Of a stretch of DNA of 33,257 bases, positions 25,312 through 33,114 are shown one piece after another; position 1 is the stretch's first letter, and the number at the start of each line of letters is the position of its first letter. This stretch comes from Mycobacterium sp. (lineage in GTDB: Bacteria > Actinomycetota > Actinomycetes > Mycobacteriales > Mycobacteriaceae). Location of the stretch: assembly GCA_003165155.1 (NCBI GenBank), contig PLSK01000226.1, positions 14,402-47,658 of the forward strand, written 5' to 3'. A program made the translations under genes and the position numbers. Below the pieces are notes generated by a model. The model was not told the origin of the DNA. It saw nothing but the letters and a program-made list of their open reading frames with translations, and did not search any database.

Positions 25312-25442
25312 GCCCACAATTTGATCATCGTGAGCTAGCGCCACACGCCCTAACGGCGGCATACGGGGCCGCCTCGTGAAACGTTGGCAATAAATCATGT
25401 CCACTGCCCTGCAGGCGGCACGGATGGATACAGTTGGTCCTG
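25312..25442. promoter_or_regulatory. Divergent promoter region, SDR / FHA-ABC transporter
   Basis: 131 bp between ATG 25311 (minus) and ATG 25443 (plus). A TACAGT hexamer lies about 10 bp upstream of the transporter ATG, with GGAT before it, which could be a -10 for a leaderless or short-leader transcript. No convincing repeats or operator symmetry seen. Confidence 0.35.
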
Positions 25443-28127
25443 ATGAGCCGACCAGCCCCACCTGTGTTGACCGTGCGGTACGACGGATCCGAGCGCACCT
25501 TTGCCGCAGGCAACGATGTAATCGTCGGACGTGACCTGCGGGCCGACGTCCGTGTCGCGCACCCGCTGATCTCCCGAGCGCACCTGCTGGTGCGATTCGA
25601 CCAGGGTCGATGGCTCGCCATCGACAACGGCAGCCTTAACGGGCTCTACGTCAACAACCGTCGCGTGCCGGTCGTCGACATCCAGGACGGCCAGCGGATA
25701 AATATCGGCAACCCGGACGGCCCGGCGCTGACCTTCGAGGTCGGCCGCCACCAGGGTTCGGCCGGACGTCCGCCCCTGACGGCGTCAATTCCGATCGGCA
25801 ATCTGATCACCGCTGCACAGCCGCCGCAGAGCCCGCCGCACACCGGCGCGTCGTGGTCCAGCCCTCCGCAACAGTCCGCGCCTGAGACGTCCCGACTGCA
25901 GCCCCCGGCCGCGCCAAGCGGTTCGCTGCCGTCGCACCCGCTCAGTGGTCCGCAAGCCAGCTATCCGTCCGGGTCGCAACCGCAGTACCCGACCGGCGGG
26001 CAACCGGTCCGGCCGCACACCGGACCGCAGCCGTCGCCGCAGATCTATCGCCCGCCCGCGCCGGTGCCCCCAGCCGAACCCCTGCCCGCTCCCGTACCCG
26101 CTCAGGCCTCGTCCGCCGGCGAGACTGGCCGCATCGGCGGCGACACCAACATCGCCACATCGATGATCAAGATCCTGCGGTCGGGCAGGGCGGTCGGCGA
26201 CGTGCCGCCGGGCGCCATCAGGATCGGCCGCGCCGACGACAACGACATCGTCATCCCCGAGGTGCTGGCATCACGCCACCACGCCACTCTGGTCCCGACG
26301 CCCCACGGCACCGAGATCCGGGACAACCGCAGCATCAACGGCACCTTCGTCAACGGGACCCGGGTCGAGACGGCGGTGCTGAACGACGGCGACATCGTCA
26401 CGATCGGCAACATCGACCTCATATTCGGTGACGGCACACTCGCTCGCCGTAACGAGAGCACGGCGGCAACGCGCACCGGGGGCCTCGATGTGCACGGGGT
26501 GACGTGGACGATCGAGAACAACAAGACGCTGCTGGACGACATCTCGTTGGCCGCGCAACCGGGAACGCTCACGGCCATCATTGGCCCCTCCGGTGCGGGC
26601 AAGTCGACGTTCGCCCGATTGGTGGCCGGGTACACCCAACCGACCGATGGAACGGTGACGTTCGAGGGCCACAACATTCACGCCGAATACGCCTCACTGC
26701 GCAGCAGAATCGGCATGGTGCCGCAGGACGATGTGGTGCACGGACAGCTGACCGTGAAGCAGGCGCTGGGGTACGCCGCCGAACTGCGACTGCCGCCGGA
26801 CACCACCAGCGATGACCGCGCCCAGGTGGTGGCCCGGGTGCTCGAGGAACTCGAGATGACCAACCATCTCGAAACCAGAGTCGACAAACTATCGGGCGGT
26901 CAGCGCAAGCGCGCGTCCGTGGCACTGGAGCTGCTGACCGGGCCGTCGCTGCTGATCCTCGACGAGCCCACCTCGGGTCTGGACCCTGCCCTGGACCGGC
27001 AGGTCATGACCATGCTGCGCCAGCTGGCCGACGCCGGACGTGTGGTGCTCGTGGTCACTCACTCGCTGACCTACCTGGACATTTGCGACCAGGTGCTGTT
27101 GCTGGCCCCCGGCGGCAAGACCGCGTTCTGCGGGCCACCCAGCCAGATCGGCGCGGCGATGGGCACGACGAACTGGGCCGATATTTTCAGCTCGGTCGCC
27201 GGTGACCCGGATGCGGCCAAGGCTCGGTACCTGGCGCACACGGGTCCGCCGCCGCCGGCGCCACCGGCCGAGAAGCCCGCCGAGCTGGGTGATCCACCGC
27301 AAACGAGTCTATTCCGGCAGTTCTCCACCATCGCCCGGCGCCAGATCCGGTTGATCGTCTCCGACCGCGGCTATTTCGCGTTCTTGGCATTGCTGCCGTT
27401 CATCATGGGTTCGCTGTCGATGTCGGTGCCCGGCGACGTCGGATTCGGCGTCCCGAACCCACTGGGTATTGCGCCCGGCGAACCCGGGCAGATCCTGGTG
27501 CTGCTCAATGTCGGCGCGGTCTTCATGGGCACCGCGTTGACCATCCGAGATCTGATCGGTGAGCGCGCAATCTTCCTGCGAGAGCAGGCCGTTGGCCTGT
27601 CCACCTCCGCGTACTTGTTGGCGAAGGTGTGCGTCTACACCGTGTTCGCGATTGTCCAGTCGGCAATCGTGACCGTCATCGCGCTGCTCGGTAAGGGCGG
27701 CCCGACACGCGGCGCCGCGGCGATAGGTAGTCCCGGTCTTGAGCTGTTCGTCGACGTCGCGCTGACCACCGTCGCCTCGGCCATGCTCGGTTTGGCGCTG
27801 TCGGCCGTCGCCAAGTCCAACGACCAGATCATGCCGCTGCTGGTGGTGGCGGTCATGTCGCAGCTGGTGTTCTCCGGCGGCATGATTCCCGTCACCGCGC
27901 GTATTGGGCTCGACCAGATGTCCTGGGTCACACCAGCAAGATGGGGATTCGCGGCGTCAGCCTCCACGGTCGACCTGACCACATTGCAGCCCGGTCCGCA
28001 GACGCCGAAGGATTCACACTGGGAACACAATGCCGGCACCTGGTGGTTCGATATCGGGATGCTGGCCACCATCAGCATTTTCTACCTCGGGTTTGTACGC
28101 TGGAAGATTCGCCTCAAGGGCGGCTGA
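25443..28127 (+). CDS. FHA-domain ABC transporter, Rv1747 homologue
   Basis: 894-residue ABCG-like half-transporter fused to two phosphothreonine-binding FHA domains. FHA1 is at about 26-95 (VGRDLRADVRVAHPLISRAHLL...NGSLNGLYVN) and FHA2 at about 259-330 (IGRADDNDIVI...ASRHHATL...NRSINGTFVNG), joined by a long Pro/Ser/Gln-rich linker (about 105-245). The nucleotide-binding domain has Walker A GPSGAGKST at 381-389, signature LSGGQ at 483-487, Walker B ILDEP with Asp507-Glu508, and switch His540. Six TMs form the ABC2 membrane domain after about 625. M. tuberculosis Rv1747 is controlled by kinase PknF phosphorylating linker threonines, and pknF lies directly upstream there. Here no kinase gene is adjacent; the neighbour is a divergent SDR. 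ATG 25443 is preferred to the track's TTG 25434. Confidence 0.95.
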   Translation: MSRPAPPVLTVRYDGSERTFAAGNDVIVGRDLRADVRVAHPLISRAHLLVRFDQGRWLAIDNGSLNGLYVNNRRVPVVDIQDGQRINIGNPDGPALTFEVGRHQGSAGRPPLTASIPIGNLITAAQPPQSPPHTGASWSSPPQQSAPETSRLQPPAAPSGSLPSHPLSGPQASYPSGSQPQYPTGGQPVRPHTGPQPSPQIYRPPAPVPPAEPLPAPVPAQASSAGETGRIGGDTNIATSMIKILRSGRAVGDVPPGAIRIGRADDNDIVIPEVLASRHHATLVPTPHGTEIRDNRSINGTFVNGTRVETAVLNDGDIVTIGNIDLIFGDGTLARRNESTAATRTGGLDVHGVTWTIENNKTLLDDISLAAQPGTLTAIIGPSGAGKSTFARLVAGYTQPTDGTVTFEGHNIHAEYASLRSRIGMVPQDDVVHGQLTVKQALGYAAELRLPPDTTSDDRAQVVARVLEELEMTNHLETRVDKLSGGQRKRASVALELLTGPSLLILDEPTSGLDPALDRQVMTMLRQLADAGRVVLVVTHSLTYLDICDQVLLLAPGGKTAFCGPPSQIGAAMGTTNWADIFSSVAGDPDAAKARYLAHTGPPPPAPPAEKPAELGDPPQTSLFRQFSTIARRQIRLIVSDRGYFAFLALLPFIMGSLSMSVPGDVGFGVPNPLGIAPGEPGQILVLLNVGAVFMGTALTIRDLIGERAIFLREQAVGLSTSAYLLAKVCVYTVFAIVQSAIVTVIALLGKGGPTRGAAAIGSPGLELFVDVALTTVASAMLGLALSAVAKSNDQIMPLLVVAVMSQLVFSGGMIPVTARIGLDQMSWVTPARWGFAASASTVDLTTLQPGPQTPKDSHWEHNAGTWWFDIGMLATISIFYLGFVRWKIRLKGG

Positions 28128-28145
28128 TAGCTTTTTAAAAACGGC

Positions 28146-28202
28146 CGAACGTCGACTTGTCGGGCTGAAAAGCCCAGTTGTAGTCCGACAAGTCGACGTT
28201 CG
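28146..28202. repeat. 57-bp inverted repeat with nested GAAA-loop hairpin
   Basis: Perfect 18-bp inverted repeat: CGAACGTCGACTTGTCGG at 28146-28163 and its exact complement at 28185-28202, separated by 21 nt. Overlapping the inner end of the left arm is a second, mutually exclusive hairpin GGGCT-GAAA-AGCCC (28162-28175). It lies between the ABC transporter and the acyl-CoA dehydrogenase start (20 bp downstream). No U-run follows on the plus strand, while CTTTTTAAAAA precedes it, so it is not a standard plus-strand terminator. It may be a large operator, a 5'-UTR switch for the beta-oxidation operon, or a small mobile repeat. Confidence 0.8.
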
Positions 28203-28222
28203 AGTGAGAGATAAGGGCCGGA

Positions 28223-29413
28223 GTGGACTTCGAACTCGATGCCGAGCAGCGTGCTTGGCTGACCGAGGTTCGCGAATTCCTCGATGTCAACGTCACCGCG
28301 GAGTTGCGGGCTGAACTCGACCAGCACGATCTGGAGTTTCCCGGCGGAGAGGTAGCGCGGTTCCGTCGCAAGATCGGCGCGAAAGGCTGGTTCGGGCTGA
28401 ACTGGCCGCGCGAATACGGGGGTCTTGCAGGTGAGGGGGGCCTCGGCGCCGTTTATCAACATCTGCTGATGAGTGAGTTCGAATACTGGGGCGTGCCCGG
28501 ACCCGACCTGACGGTCACATCGGTAGCGCCGATGATCATGCGCCACGGTACCGGGCAGAACAAGACCGAATGGCTGCCACCAATTGCCAAGGGCGAAATG
28601 ATTTGTGCTGTAGGATATTCCGAGTCTGAAGCCGGTACCGACTTGGCCAACCTGTGCACCCGTGCCGTGCGCGATGGCCAGGAATGGGTGATCAACGGCA
28701 GCAAGATCTGGAACAGCGGGGCGCAGCGCGCCACCCACGAGTGGCTCTGTGTGCGCACCGATCCCGACAGCGCTCGCCATCGCGGGATTTCGGTGATCAT
28801 CGTCCCGATCGACAGCCCCGGCGTGGAAATCCGCCCGCTGTACGCGTGGTCGGGCTATCGCACCAATGAGGTGCACTTCCAGGATGTCCGGGTTCCGCTG
28901 ACAAATCTGGTGGGTGAGGTCAACAGTGGCTGGAAGTACATCACCGGCGCGCTTGACCTAGAGCGTGGTGCGTTGACCAATGCGGGCGATCTGGGCCGAG
29001 CCGTTGACGACTTGTTTGAACTCGCCGCCCGCCCGCGCCGCGACGGCACGGTGCCCGCCGACAGTCCGGCCCTGCGCCGGCGGCTGGCACAGGCCGAGGC
29101 TGACGTGGAGGTGGCCACACTGATGGGTTATGAGGCCGCGTCGATCCTGGACAGCGGAGTCATCCCGACCGTCGAAGTCAGCGTGGAGAAGATCTTCACC
29201 AGTGAACTACGCCAGCGGATCGCCGACCTGGCTCTCGATTTGCTCGGCCCAGACGGCTTGTTGGCGCATCGCAGCCAAGACGCCCCGATGGCGGGCAAGT
29301 TCGAACGGCTCTACCGCGCAGCGCCGTTGATGCGGTTCGGCGGCGGCACCAACGAGGTGTTGCGCGACATCATCGCCCAGCGCGGCCATGGCATGCCCTC
29401 CTATGGGCGTTAA
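28223..29413 (+). CDS. Acyl-CoA dehydrogenase, catalytic (FadE29/ChsE2-like) subunit
   Basis: 396-residue FAD-dependent acyl-CoA dehydrogenase. Features: N-terminal helical domain (FELDAEQRAWLTEVREFL), GLNWPREYGG, the flavin segment VGYSESEAGTDLANL, INGSKIWNSGA, VPLTNLVGEVNSGWKYI, and C-terminal MRFGGGTNEVLRDIIAQRG. The MCAD-type catalytic Glu position (before GT near the C-terminus) is Gly, while Glu247 in LDLERGAL is well placed as the base. This fits the ChsE2/FadE29 side of mycobacterial alpha2beta2 steroid acyl-CoA dehydrogenases. GTG 28223 follows an AAGGG site. The next gene, 18 bp away, is a second shorter FadE lacking the Glu, the expected partner. Likely acts on a steroid- or terpenoid-type side-chain CoA ester. 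Confidence 0.9.
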   Translation: MDFELDAEQRAWLTEVREFLDVNVTAELRAELDQHDLEFPGGEVARFRRKIGAKGWFGLNWPREYGGLAGEGGLGAVYQHLLMSEFEYWGVPGPDLTVTSVAPMIMRHGTGQNKTEWLPPIAKGEMICAVGYSESEAGTDLANLCTRAVRDGQEWVINGSKIWNSGAQRATHEWLCVRTDPDSARHRGISVIIVPIDSPGVEIRPLYAWSGYRTNEVHFQDVRVPLTNLVGEVNSGWKYITGALDLERGALTNAGDLGRAVDDLFELAARPRRDGTVPADSPALRRRLAQAEADVEVATLMGYEAASILDSGVIPTVEVSVEKIFTSELRQRIADLALDLLGPDGLLAHRSQDAPMAGKFERLYRAAPLMRFGGGTNEVLRDIIAQRGHGMPSYGR

Positions 29414-29431
29414 CGGGAACCCCGGGAACTC

Positions 29432-30559
29432 ATGAAAGCGACACTGACCGCCGAGCAACGCGAATTCGCCTCGAGTTCGCGTGCGCTGTTGTCGGCGGAG
29501 TGCCCGTTGAGTTTGGTGCGCGCGCTGGGTGAGCCCGGGGCCGACCGCACCACGCCGGCGCTGTGGAAGGCGTTGGCGGACGCCGGGGTATTCGGGCTGG
29601 CCATCGGCGAGGTCTACGGCGGCTCAGGCGGTTCGCTCGACGACCTCGCCGTCTTCTACACCGAGGCCGGTCGTGCGCTGTGCCCGACGACTGTGCACAG
29701 CACCATTCAAGCCGTCCTGGCGATCGACCTGCTTGGTGCCCCGTCAGTCAAGGCCGCATGGTTGCCCCAACTGGCCGGCGGGAGCGTTCGCGGCGCCACT
29801 GCGTTGTGGAATGCCCGCGATGCCGCTGTCGTTTCGGCTGTGCTGCGGGCCAATCCCGTGGCGACCGGCGGCTGGCGGCTCACCGGAATTGCGGATTACG
29901 TCGCTGACGCCGACATCGCCGACCTCGTCGTCGTTTCCGCCATCGATACGACCAGCGAGCGCACGCTGGTCTTCATCGTTGATGCGCGCGCGACCGGCGT
30001 GCGAATGGAACCGCTTGCGATGGCGGGCGGGCACCGGGTTTTCGCTGTGCGTTTCGACGACGTGATCGTCACCGCCGACGCGCTGGTTGGTGACCGCGAG
30101 CGCGAGGCGCTACGCCGGATGGCCAACGCTGCGGTGGCATTGGGGTCGCTCGACTTGGTTGGCGTCGGGCAGGCCGTGCTGGACCGCACCGTTGACTACA
30201 CGAAGCTGCGCCACCAGTTCGGGCGACCAATCGCCTCGTTCCAGGCGGCCCAGCATCTGATCGCCAACATGCACATCGCTCTGGCCGCGGCGCGATTGGC
30301 GGCGCACTCGGCGATTTTCTGGATAGCCCGCGGTCGCACCGCAACCAGGGAAACCGCCATCGCGCGGATGCATGCGGCCGCCGCGGCCAGGCTGATAACC
30401 CTGGACGCCCATCAACTGCACGGCGGGATCGGGTACGTGACCGAGACCGATCTACATCTGTGGACCGAGCGGGCAAGGCTCGGTTCGACTCTCGGCGGAA
30501 CAAGCGACGTCGCCGCATCATGGTTGGAGGAGAGCATGAACGGAAGGGAGCGCAGTTGA
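29432..30559 (+). CDS. Acyl-CoA dehydrogenase, partner (FadE28/ChsE1-like) subunit
   Basis: 375-residue acyl-CoA dehydrogenase homologue. It has the N-terminal LTAEQREFASSSRALL, the GVFGLAIGEVYGGSGGSLDDLAVFYTEAGRAL segment, and the C-terminal flavin-binding RHQFGRPIASFQAAQHLIANM and QLHGGIGYVTETDLHLW with LGGTSDVAASWLEE. At the position of the partner's catalytic Glu it has SLDLVGVGQAVL with no Glu, and the flavin/substrate loops are shortened. It is therefore probably the non-basic half of a heterotetramer with the gene 18 bp upstream, as for ChsE1-ChsE2. ATG 29432 follows GGGAAC. Its stop overlaps the TTG start of the MaoC gene (TTGA). Heteromer inferred from sequence and gene order. Confidence 0.88.
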   Translation: MKATLTAEQREFASSSRALLSAECPLSLVRALGEPGADRTTPALWKALADAGVFGLAIGEVYGGSGGSLDDLAVFYTEAGRALCPTTVHSTIQAVLAIDLLGAPSVKAAWLPQLAGGSVRGATALWNARDAAVVSAVLRANPVATGGWRLTGIADYVADADIADLVVVSAIDTTSERTLVFIVDARATGVRMEPLAMAGGHRVFAVRFDDVIVTADALVGDREREALRRMANAAVALGSLDLVGVGQAVLDRTVDYTKLRHQFGRPIASFQAAQHLIANMHIALAAARLAAHSAIFWIARGRTATRETAIARMHAAAAARLITLDAHQLHGGIGYVTETDLHLWTERARLGSTLGGTSDVAASWLEESMNGRERS

Positions 30560-31056
30560 GCGAGGACACCTTGATCGACGCCGAATCGGCGGCACGAGTG
30601 GGCAGCATCGCGGCTTCCGCGATAGGCGAGGTGAACCGGCGGGATTGGCAGCGATGGGCGGCGGCGGTCGGTGACCACAACCCGCTGTACTTCGATCCGG
30701 ATTACGCCCGGGCCAATGGCTTTCGCGACGTCATCTGCCCCCCGCTTTTCCTGCAGTACGCGGTGCTAGGCGTCGCGGCTCTCGACACCCTTCGCGCGGA
30801 CGGCTCGTCCGGCGCCGTCTCGGGCGGTCTCGCCTTCCCCAGTGCGCCCAAGCGAATGGCGGGCGGCGAGAGCTTTACCTTCCACCTGCCCGCCTATCAC
30901 CGCGACCAGATCGAAATGGTCCGCACCATCGAATCGATCGTCGAAAAGCACGGCCGCTCTGGCAGATTCGTCCTGGTCACCTGGCGGACGGTATATCACA
31001 ACCAGCACCGCGATCTGGTTGCCGAAGCGTCAACGTCGATGATCGCCCGACCATAG
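30556..31056 (+). CDS. MaoC-like hydratase subunit, His-lacking (FAS1-type dehydratase domain)
   Basis: 166-residue hot-dog-fold protein starting at TTG 30556. That codon overlaps the fadE stop as TTGA and has a GGGAG ribosome site, so the track's 32-residue Arg-rich upstream extension is rejected. The family motif appears as AAAVGDHNPLYFDPDYA: Asp and Asn-Pro are kept but the catalytic His of GDxNPxHxD is Tyr, as in the structural, non-catalytic halves of mycobacterial hydratase heterodimers (HadA or ChsH2 side). Further typical segments are FRDVICPPLFLQY and VEKHGRSGRFVLVTWRTVYHNQ. The following gene encodes a second, His-containing hot-dog protein, so a two-subunit enoyl-CoA hydratase is likely. 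Confidence 0.85.
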   Translation: MSEDTLIDAESAARVGSIAASAIGEVNRRDWQRWAAAVGDHNPLYFDPDYARANGFRDVICPPLFLQYAVLGVAALDTLRADGSSGAVSGGLAFPSAPKRMAGGESFTFHLPAYHRDQIEMVRTIESIVEKHGRSGRFVLVTWRTVYHNQHRDLVAEASTSMIARP

Positions 31057-31063
31057 GAGTGCC

Positions 31064-31507
31064 GTGAACGGTGAGCTGTATTTCGAAGACGTCGGCGTGG
31101 GCGAGCAGATGCCGACGCTAGCCGTCACCGTCGATGAAACCCAGCTCTTCTTCTTCAGCGCCGCTACCTACAACGGCCACCGCATCCATTACGACAAGCA
31201 GTGGGCTCAGACGGTCGAGGGCTATGACGACGTGCTGGTCCATGGGCCGCTGCAGGCGGCTCTGCTGGCTCGCGCGATCGGCGACTGGATTGGTGGGCGC
31301 GGCCGCCTGGTGTCCTTCGCGGTGCAGAACCGGGCGACTGCCCATCCCGGTGAGCTACTCACCTTCGGTGGGGAAGTCACCGGCAAGCGGCTCACCGATA
31401 GCGGCGCCGGGTTGGTGGACCTCAATATCGCCGGGTGCCGCGATGACACCGTGCTGATGCCGGGAACAGCAACCGTGGAGCTACCTCGACGCGGGGGGCC
31501 GTCGTGA
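31064..31507 (+). CDS. MaoC-like enoyl-CoA hydratase subunit (His-containing)
   Basis: 147-residue single hot-dog domain (YFEDVGVGEQMPTLAVTVDETQLFFFSAATYNGHRIHYDKQWA) with downstream LVHGPLQAALLARAIGDWIGGRGRLVSFAVQNRATAHPGELLTFGGEVTGKR. The motif NGHRIHYD keeps the catalytic His, while the usual Asp is Asn, as in the HTD2/RIHYD subgroup. GTG 31064 has a TAGGAG site 5 nt upstream. It follows its partner by 7 bp and overlaps the Ltp gene (GTGA). Expected to hydrate the enoyl-CoA made by the FadE pair, as a ChsH1-like subunit. Stereochemistry and substrate are inference. Confidence 0.86.
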   Translation: MNGELYFEDVGVGEQMPTLAVTVDETQLFFFSAATYNGHRIHYDKQWAQTVEGYDDVLVHGPLQAALLARAIGDWIGGRGRLVSFAVQNRATAHPGELLTFGGEVTGKRLTDSGAGLVDLNIAGCRDDTVLMPGTATVELPRRGGPS

Positions 31508-32715
31508 GTGGGCTGCGCGGTGAGGCGGCCATCGTCGGCATCGCCGAGTTGCCCGCCGAACGCCGTCCGAGTCGACCGGCGCTGTTCACCCTGGACCAGT
31601 ACGCGCTGTTGGCGAAGATGGTGGTCGAAGACGCGGGAGTAGACCCCGCACGCATCAACGGCCTGCTCACCCATGGCATCGCCGAGTCGGCGATGTTCGC
31701 GCCGGCCACCCTGTGCGAATACCTGGGTTTGGCCTTGGATTTCGGTGAGCGAGTCGACCTCGGGGGCGCCACGTCCGCTGGAATGGTTTGGCGCGCCGCG
31801 GCCGCCGTGGAACTCGGCATCTGCGACGCCGTGCTGGCGGTGGTACCCGGATCGACGTCGCTGCCCCAGTCCCCGCAGTCTCTCAAGACCCCACCTACGG
31901 CCCCGAATTGGTATGGGGCGTCGTCAAACAACTACGGGTCGCCGCAGGCCGAGTTCGAGATCCCGTACGGCAACGTCGGCCAGAACGCGCCGTACGCGCA
32001 GATAGCTCAGCGTTACGCCGCGGAGTTCGGCTATGACCCAGCCGCCGTCGCCAAGATCGCCGTCGACCAACGCACCAACGCGTGCGCGCACCCAGGCGCG
32101 GTTTTCCACGGCACTCCGCTGACCGTCGACGACGTTCTGGGCAGCCCGATGATCGCCGACCCGATCCACATGCTCGAGACGGTGATGCGCGTGCAGGGGG
32201 GTGTCGGGGTGCTGATTGCCAACGCCGACATCGCGCGTCAGAGTCGCCATCGTCCGGTCTGGATCACCGGCTTCGGCGAACACATTGCCTTCAAGACCCC
32301 GACCTACGCGGACGACTTGCTGCATACGCCCATTGCGCGCGCCGCCGATAAGGCGTTCACGATGGCGGGGCTGAGCCGATCCGACGTCGATGTCGCTTCG
32401 ATCTACGACTGCTACACCATCACGGTGCTGATGAGCCTGGAAGATGCCGGCTTCTGCACCAAAGGCAAAGGCATGTCGTGGATTGCCGAGCATGATTTGA
32501 CCTATCGCGGCGACTTTCCGCTGAACACCGCGGGCGGCCAGCTGTCCTTCGGGCAGGCCGGCATGGCCGGCGGCATGCATCATGTCGTCGACGGTGCGCG
32601 CCAAGTAATGGGCCGAGCGGGGGACGCGCAAGTGCCGGATTGCGACACCGCGTTCGTCACCGGCAACGGCGGCATCATGAGCGAGCAGGTCGCGTTGCTG
32701 ATGGTGGGGGACTAG
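31504..32715 (+). CDS. Ltp2-like thiolase-fold lipid-transfer protein (probable retro-aldolase)
   Basis: 403-residue SCP-x/nonspecific lipid-transfer thiolase homologue. The thiolase fold is recognisable (AAIVGIAELP, DVASIYDCYTITVLMSLEDAGFC, FPLNTAGGQLSFGQAGMAGGMHHVVDGARQV). The N-terminal nucleophile Cys is absent: the loop reads DLGGATSAGMVW. That is the hallmark of Ltp2-type proteins, which cleave beta-hydroxyacyl-CoA by retro-aldol reaction with help from a DUF35 partner instead of thiolysis. Tyr301 and Tyr304 in YDCYT are candidate catalytic residues. GTG 31504 overlaps the MaoC stop (GTGA), and the DUF35 gene begins right after its TAG. It probably releases a short acid or CoA ester from a branched side chain. 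Confidence 0.88.
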   Translation: MSGLRGEAAIVGIAELPAERRPSRPALFTLDQYALLAKMVVEDAGVDPARINGLLTHGIAESAMFAPATLCEYLGLALDFGERVDLGGATSAGMVWRAAAAVELGICDAVLAVVPGSTSLPQSPQSLKTPPTAPNWYGASSNNYGSPQAEFEIPYGNVGQNAPYAQIAQRYAAEFGYDPAAVAKIAVDQRTNACAHPGAVFHGTPLTVDDVLGSPMIADPIHMLETVMRVQGGVGVLIANADIARQSRHRPVWITGFGEHIAFKTPTYADDLLHTPIARAADKAFTMAGLSRSDVDVASIYDCYTITVLMSLEDAGFCTKGKGMSWIAEHDLTYRGDFPLNTAGGQLSFGQAGMAGGMHHVVDGARQVMGRAGDAQVPDCDTAFVTGNGGIMSEQVALLMVGD

Positions 32716-33114
32716 ATGCGTCCGATTCCCGAGCCCACGCCGGTGTCCCAGCCCTTCTGGGACGGCCTGGCGCAGCACCGAATCCTGGTGCAATACTCGC
32801 CTTCGCTCGACCGCTACGTCTTCTACCCTCGCACCCTCGCTCCGGGAACTTTCGCCGACGATCTTGAATGGCGCGAAATCGACGGCGCCGGCGCGCTTTA
32901 CACCTATACCGTCGCCCGTCGGCCTACCGGTCCCCCCTGGGCCGACGCGCTCCCGCAACTGCTGGCCGTGGTGCAATGGGATGCCGGGCCCCGGATCAGC
33001 ACCGAACTGGTCGATGTGGAGCCGAGCGACATTCGGATCGGGATGCGCTTGCGGCCGGTGTTCTGCGATCAACCCGAAGCCGGCATCACGCTGCTGAAGT
33101 ATCGTCCGGCATGA
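32716..33114 (+). CDS. Stand-alone DUF35 OB-fold protein without zinc-ribbon cysteines
   Basis: 132-residue DUF35/OB-fold acyl-CoA-associated protein: PFWDGLAQHRILVQYSPSLDRYVFYPRTLAPG, then DLEWREIDGAGALYTYTVARRP and LPQLLAVVQWDAGPRISTELVDVEPSDIRIGMRLRPVF. DUF35 proteins normally have an N-terminal rubredoxin-like zinc ribbon (CxxCG...CPxC); those positions here are Tyr/Ser and Tyr/Pro, so zinc binding is lost. In the cholesterol igr operon the DUF35 domain is fused to the MaoC protein ChsH2 and activates Ltp2; here it is a separate gene adjacent to ltp. The ATG directly follows the ltp TAG. It should dock on the Ltp2-like protein. Its stop overlaps the next ATG (ATGA). Confidence 0.88.
   Translation: MRPIPEPTPVSQPFWDGLAQHRILVQYSPSLDRYVFYPRTLAPGTFADDLEWREIDGAGALYTYTVARRPTGPPWADALPQLLAVVQWDAGPRISTELVDVEPSDIRIGMRLRPVFCDQPEAGITLLKYRPA

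Follow-up and report, generated by a model that had tools for sequence, protein, structure and literature searches.

The window analysed in the present study, the whole stretch of 33,257 nucleotides from a Mycobacterium sp. contig (PLSK01000226.1), contains a gene for an FHA-domain ABC transporter (25434-28127, plus strand), which we take to be Rv1747-like from its domain make-up, and the downstream gene fadE, encoding an acyl-CoA dehydrogenase (28223-29413, plus strand) and starting with a GTG codon at 28223. The genes from 28223 to 33114 are arranged in the order fadE, fadE, MaoC-like, MaoC, thiolase/lipid-transfer and ChsH2-like OB-fold, and this order presumably resembles the cholesterol side-chain degradation operon type rather than generic beta-oxidation. 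A palindromic element of 57 bp (28146-28202) follows the 3' end of the transporter gene, whose stop codon is located 18 nt upstream, and stops 20 nt ahead of fadE. The two 18-bp arms, CGAACGTCGACTTGTCGG (28146-28163, plus strand) and CCGACAAGTCGACGTTCG (28185-28202, minus strand), are perfect complements separated by a 21-nt centre (28164-28184). According to the half-site consensus described below, the left arm holds the conserved half-site AACGTCGASTTGTYG (28148-28162), and the right arm is its inverted copy. Sequence comparison confirmed the arms, their spacing and the distance to fadE reported in an earlier, sequence-only reading of this DNA. The description of the element as a "57-bp perfect inverted repeat" holds for the arms, but the centre is unpaired, and the 57 bp are therefore not palindromic throughout.

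No other perfect inverted repeat of the window is as long as the 18-bp arms; when the window was simulated 60 times with a first-order Markov model, the maximum was 14 bp. Plus-strand RNA folding of the element gave a z score of -6.5. A small GAAA hairpin, GGGCT-GAAA-AGCCC (28162-28175, plus strand), had been proposed to compete with the long stem. This hairpin is present and overlaps the left arm, but the overlap comprises just 2 nt (28162-28163), and a shortened long stem and the small hairpin are formed together in the minus-strand RNA fold, so that the two structures are hardly exclusive; the hairpin belongs to the variable centre of the window copy and is not conserved in the family. Similarly, the minus-strand GCCGTTTTT run noted previously does lie beside the window copy, with GTTTTT adjoining the element at 28137-28142 (minus strand), but it is private to this copy and no family trait, as at least five T residues within 8 nt were found at 1 of 106 family-member ends. 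A canonical intrinsic terminator, consisting of a G+C-rich hairpin and a T-run, was rejected because the T-run is missing at the other 105 ends. The terminator scan revealed no plus-strand terminator at the window element, and no match to the element was obtained in Rfam or in the plasmid and phage collections searched.

The window inverted repeat is one copy of a palindrome family scattered after mycobacterial genes, and not an operon switch. The arm comparison and the other family members identify it as a solo copy, and the alternative suggestion of the sequence-only reading, a small dispersed repeat, was borne out by its recurrence at unrelated Mycobacterium loci. A second copy was observed in the source genome at convergent gene ends, and several copies are carried by relatives. 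A strict-pattern scan of 84,980 prokaryote species identified 39 stretches, all in Mycobacterium, and a sequence-only model gave matches to the family in 48 of the 119 Mycobacterium genomes sampled, the richest of which (G017) contains at least 45 match rows, counted on both strands. The usual position of a family member is 3-15 bp past a stop codon. According to gene calls made with a simple home-made codon-usage gene finder, 68 copies were distributed among convergent (29), tandem (28) and divergent (2) gene pairs, the interior of a predicted gene (8, several of which overlap a gene end) and a contig edge (1). Among the tandem copies, 27 of 28 are nearer to the upstream stop codon than to the downstream start codon, with median distances of 10 and 56 bp, respectively (p = 2e-7). 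A preference of this kind for gene 3' ends was observed for two further palindrome families of the source genome.

Across the family, the half-site AACGTCGASTTGTTG is conserved in both arms, and the consensus GCCGAACGTCGASTTGTTG-N~23-CAACAASTCGACGTTCGGC has a nearly fixed length and a centre of variable sequence. The consensus starts with GCCGAACGTCGA, in which CGTC lies within the paired arm and is not an unpaired tag. No covariation between the arms was detected among 20 pairs, with 83.4% of arm cells paired compared with 83.3% when partners were shuffled; the sample was partly gathered by a search pattern in which some arm positions are fixed, so that column 13/49 is biased, and the conclusion uses all 20 pairs. 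The arms thus vary independently, suggesting that the selected feature is a pair of inverted half-sites, as expected for a dimeric protein, rather than a base-paired stem. The two-site protein operator that had been considered as another alternative is consistent with these findings in its two conserved half-sites, but not as an operator of fadE.

The full form of the family is a cassette of approximately 1 kb, in which two palindromes surround a gene for a homing-endonuclease-like nuclease. At six loci (L005, L006, L014, L035, L036 and L043), pairs of copies 954-968 bp apart enclose a single nuclease gene, which is disrupted in L005 and L036 and intact in most of these loci, and the nuclease was the sole cassette-length open reading frame between the palindrome pairs examined. 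Thus, the palindrome and the nuclease are linked in cis. The protein comprises approximately 290 amino acids, with an AbiEi-like N-terminal part (AbiEi matches from PADLOC fall on this half) and a C-terminus matching MTES_1575/DUF559 (PF18741/PF04480), a Vsr/homing-endonuclease-like PD-(D/E)XK domain. Proteins of the AbiEi type bind inverted repeats. Among 41 homologs with identities as low as approximately 20%, the active-site residues D219, E230 and D232 are invariant and E186 is nearly so. The top PDB match of the AlphaFold model (pLDDT 95.5) was the catalytic domain of the homing endonuclease I-Bth0305I (3r3p), with a Foldseek probability of 1.0, a TM score of 0.75 on the target and an E value of 0.02, which is not significant alone; a profile search returned 3hrl (2e-8) and 3r3p (0.006). 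From the profile match and the conserved acidic active site, the protein can be assigned to the Vsr-like MTES_1575/DUF559 nucleases of the PD-(D/E)XK type.

This arrangement extends beyond the window family. Nuclease-type genes were found in all 119 sampled Mycobacterium genomes, with 1-19 genes each, and a matched, mostly palindromic pair of flanking repeats was observed for 39 of 47 mycobacterial nuclease genes and for 16 of 20 genes from other genera of the order, the repeat sequence differing between nuclease lineages. The mycobacterial figure combines 27 of 33 loci with 12 of 14 further loci at which the flank match exceeded a threshold of 20, the 99th percentile of 525 random 870-bp placements, which replaced a first control inflated by orthologous loci. 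In the other genera, the 16 genes scored above both their own shuffles and 20, and their units are mostly clearly palindromic and show no sequence relationship to those of mycobacteria. The source genome has seven nuclease paralogs, six of which (L066-L071) have matching palindromes on both sides, with a separate sequence for each, and two of these palindrome families have extra solo copies in the same genome.

Orthologous sites differ in the presence of these elements. At one convergent junction, nine species carry the cassette and at least five lack it, and in these empty junctions the stop codons abut or overlap with no palindrome left; at a neighbouring junction, the pattern of presence and absence is reversed. 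At an unrelated junction, the source genome has one family, G017 has the window family, other genomes have a third or fourth family and six species have none. Two solo copies of the window family in G017 are replaced by different palindromes in G083, which is 90% identical there, and the flanks are alignable up to the palindrome borders; at one solo site in G017, the stop codon of the host gene has been lost to the palindrome. In many species, the cassettes at sites 1 and 2 share position and orientation, as would be expected from vertical inheritance. An apparent inversion of cassettes between orthologous sites was an artefact of contig orientation, and the nuclease orientation is actually the same. 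In several loci (L085, L093-L096, L098 and L100), a second cassette with its own palindromes was observed at the far end of the gene neighbouring cassette 1, and two cassettes at both ends of one gene suggest a hotspot. Neither a transposition event nor an intermediate or a target-site duplication was observed among orthologs of 75-90% identity, whose junctions are too diverged to resolve duplications.

Taken together, the window element is best explained as a solo and probably non-autonomous member of a family of mobile palindromes. With moderate confidence, we favour a REPIN/RAYT-like system whose enzyme is an unrelated nuclease, in which palindrome-nuclease-palindrome is the autonomous form and the window element a solo copy. 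At least 10 palindrome rows were found in all nine genomes with a close nuclease (at least 79% identical), compared with 9 of the 110 others (Fisher p = 5e-9), a correlation confounded by shared ancestry. We infer that the nuclease binds, cuts and mobilises its palindrome and that a copying step is involved. The two inverted half-sites would be recognised by the N-terminal domain, or by a dimer of the whole protein; the Vsr/homing-endonuclease-like domain might then cut at the palindrome or at a target near gene 3' ends; and repair of the break would copy the palindrome, or the entire cassette, into a new site just past a stop codon. A close cognate nuclease for the window family was not found in the source genome, the assembly of which is 90% complete, and therefore the window copy may be a relic.

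Several other explanations were weighed against this one. A regulatory RNA leader that controls fadE through two alternative folds, as the sequence-only reading had proposed for the beta-oxidation operon, would fit the position 20 nt ahead of the start codon and the strong predicted fold. However, the hallmarks of a leader or riboswitch are conservation upstream of orthologous genes and covarying stems, and neither was found for the window element. The family is dispersed at unrelated loci after genes, the arms do not covary, the two folds share just 2 nt, Rfam contains no match, and the ABC-fadE interval of the three relatives in which it is readable (G071, G036 and G083; 451-580 bp) contains no palindrome of the window type, an absence that the sequence-only reading had itself named as grounds for refutation. 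The leader is accordingly extremely improbable, and the palindrome has no evident fadE-specific role. In these three relatives, the interval apparently contains a small convergent open reading frame and a fadE upstream region, compared with 95 bp in the source genome; sequence beside the window palindrome has apparently been lost in the source genome or gained in the relatives. A stronger candidate, although still an unlikely one, is that selection maintains the palindromes for a role at 3' ends that works in both directions, as terminators, exonuclease blocks or supercoiling sites, while their sequence turns over, with the nuclease as an unrelated passenger or a user of the site. The strong bias to the first 3-15 bp past stop codons and to convergent pairs, the strong predicted hairpin and the finding that sister species keep a palindrome of entirely different sequence at the same two 3' ends are consistent with such selection, whereas the many species without a palindrome at the same junctions, the missing T-run at 105 of 106 ends and the lack of the arm covariation expected under hairpin selection argue against it, and the matched lineage-specific pairs around nuclease genes would be left unexplained.

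The two remaining explanations concern the protein that uses the palindromes. If the AbiEi-like N-terminal domain were a regulator, the palindromes might be its operators, with the nuclease gene autoregulated and the solo copies serving as other sites of the same regulator. The AbiEi matches, the location of one cassette palindrome within approximately 150 bp upstream of the nuclease gene and the resemblance of two independent conserved half-sites to protein-binding sites point in this direction; but solo copies lie preferentially at 3' ends and away from promoter regions, and neither a second, matching palindrome on the downstream side of the gene nor the presence and absence of cassettes at orthologous junctions is predicted by this explanation, which we consider quite doubtful. 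It is very unlikely that another enzyme, e.g. an IS200/Y1-type transposase as for REPs, moves the palindromes while the nuclease cassette hitchhikes. The REP-like location and size would be accounted for, and some Mycobacterium genomes do encode Y1 transposases, the source genome among them, with four matches, some fragmentary, on contigs C291, C131, C182 and C196. However, no Y1_Tnp match was found in G017, which has the most window-family rows of any genome, or in G001; the nuclease is the sole cassette-length open reading frame between the palindrome pairs examined; and each nuclease lineage has its own palindrome.

The favoured interpretation, a palindrome family spread by its own nuclease, can be compared with described systems. 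REPs and REPINs are short dispersed inverted repeats located mostly after genes, between convergent or unidirectional open reading frames, and the RAYT gene, encoding a Y1/HUH enzyme, is flanked by its cognate palindrome, with several lineage-specific repeat families and solo copies elsewhere, according to PMC3116915 and PMC3733652. The system described here likewise has an enzyme gene flanked by its cognate palindrome and dispersed copies downstream of genes. In contrast, its enzyme is a PD-(D/E)XK Vsr/homing-endonuclease-like protein with an AbiEi-like N-terminus rather than an HUH/Y1 transposase, its palindromes measure 50-62 bp and lack a terminal unpaired GTAG (or CGTC) tag, and the copy-rich G017 is without a Y1 transposase. 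Two features that define REPIN/RAYT systems, the HUH/Y1 enzyme and the GTAG tag, are therefore absent, and the system would work like REPIN/RAYT without being a member. MITEs and insertion sequences with terminal inverted repeats resemble it in the one-gene cassette with matching ends and the short gene-less copies, but here each cassette end is a complete palindrome, no known transposase domain is present and no target-site duplication was recognised at the diverged junctions (75-90% identity). I-Bth0305I, a Vsr-like EDxHD homing endonuclease, has the closest solved catalytic fold and is likewise a nuclease encoded by a mobile element, whereas the present nuclease lies outside introns and inteins, is flanked by palindromes at gene 3' ends and has the extra AbiEi-like N-terminal part. 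The likeness to the type IV toxin-antitoxin system AbiE (AbiEi antitoxin and AbiEii nucleotidyltransferase toxin) consists of the N-terminal AbiEi-like match. In M. tuberculosis, REP-like stem-loop repeats without a known enzyme (PMC3733652) and the repeat families Myt-1 and Myt-8 (PMC2267715) are likewise short structured mycobacterial repeats, compared here by their published description, and no link to a nuclease was found in the passages of these two papers that were examined.

There is about an even chance that these elements represent a class of mobile DNA that has not been described before and is widespread among actinobacteria, in which a homing-endonuclease-like enzyme with an AbiEi-like N-terminus recognises the palindromes flanking its own gene and spreads them, leaving solo copies at gene 3' ends. 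No report of a link between nuclease and palindrome was found in the literature searched, in which subscription papers were sparse and preprints lay outside the search. If such a class exists, an unrelated enzyme would have given rise to a functional counterpart of REP/RAYT, and the REP/RAYT lifestyle would have arisen with different chemistry; a role would also be found for many of the functionally uncharacterised DUF559/MTES_1575 genes in these genomes, and an added source of 3'-end sequence turnover affecting transcript ends would be recognised. Moreover, if the nucleases are the enzymes of palindrome elements, they would explain a set of mycobacterial REP-like repeats for which no mobilising enzyme is named in the papers examined here.

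Several minor observations concern individual repeats. The Mycobacterium motif CGAAA(N)19TTTCG (PMC5217627) is different from, and shorter than, the family palindrome. Evidence that the two palindromes of one cassette evolve in concert is weak (0.77 within compared with 0.71 between loci), and no claim is made for it. No nuclease is assigned to the GCGAGCAGACGC-type palindromes or to the palindrome family of the form GCGAGCAGACGCAAAA..TTTTGCGTCTGCTCGC (L314:7940-7999 and L165-L167), which was found at gene 3' ends of several species. In addition, a 61-bp CGCGAAACTGYAACTACC palindrome is present three times on one side of a nuclease gene of the source genome and a fourth time on the other (L066:317-1497), and occurs at approximately 17 places in that genome.
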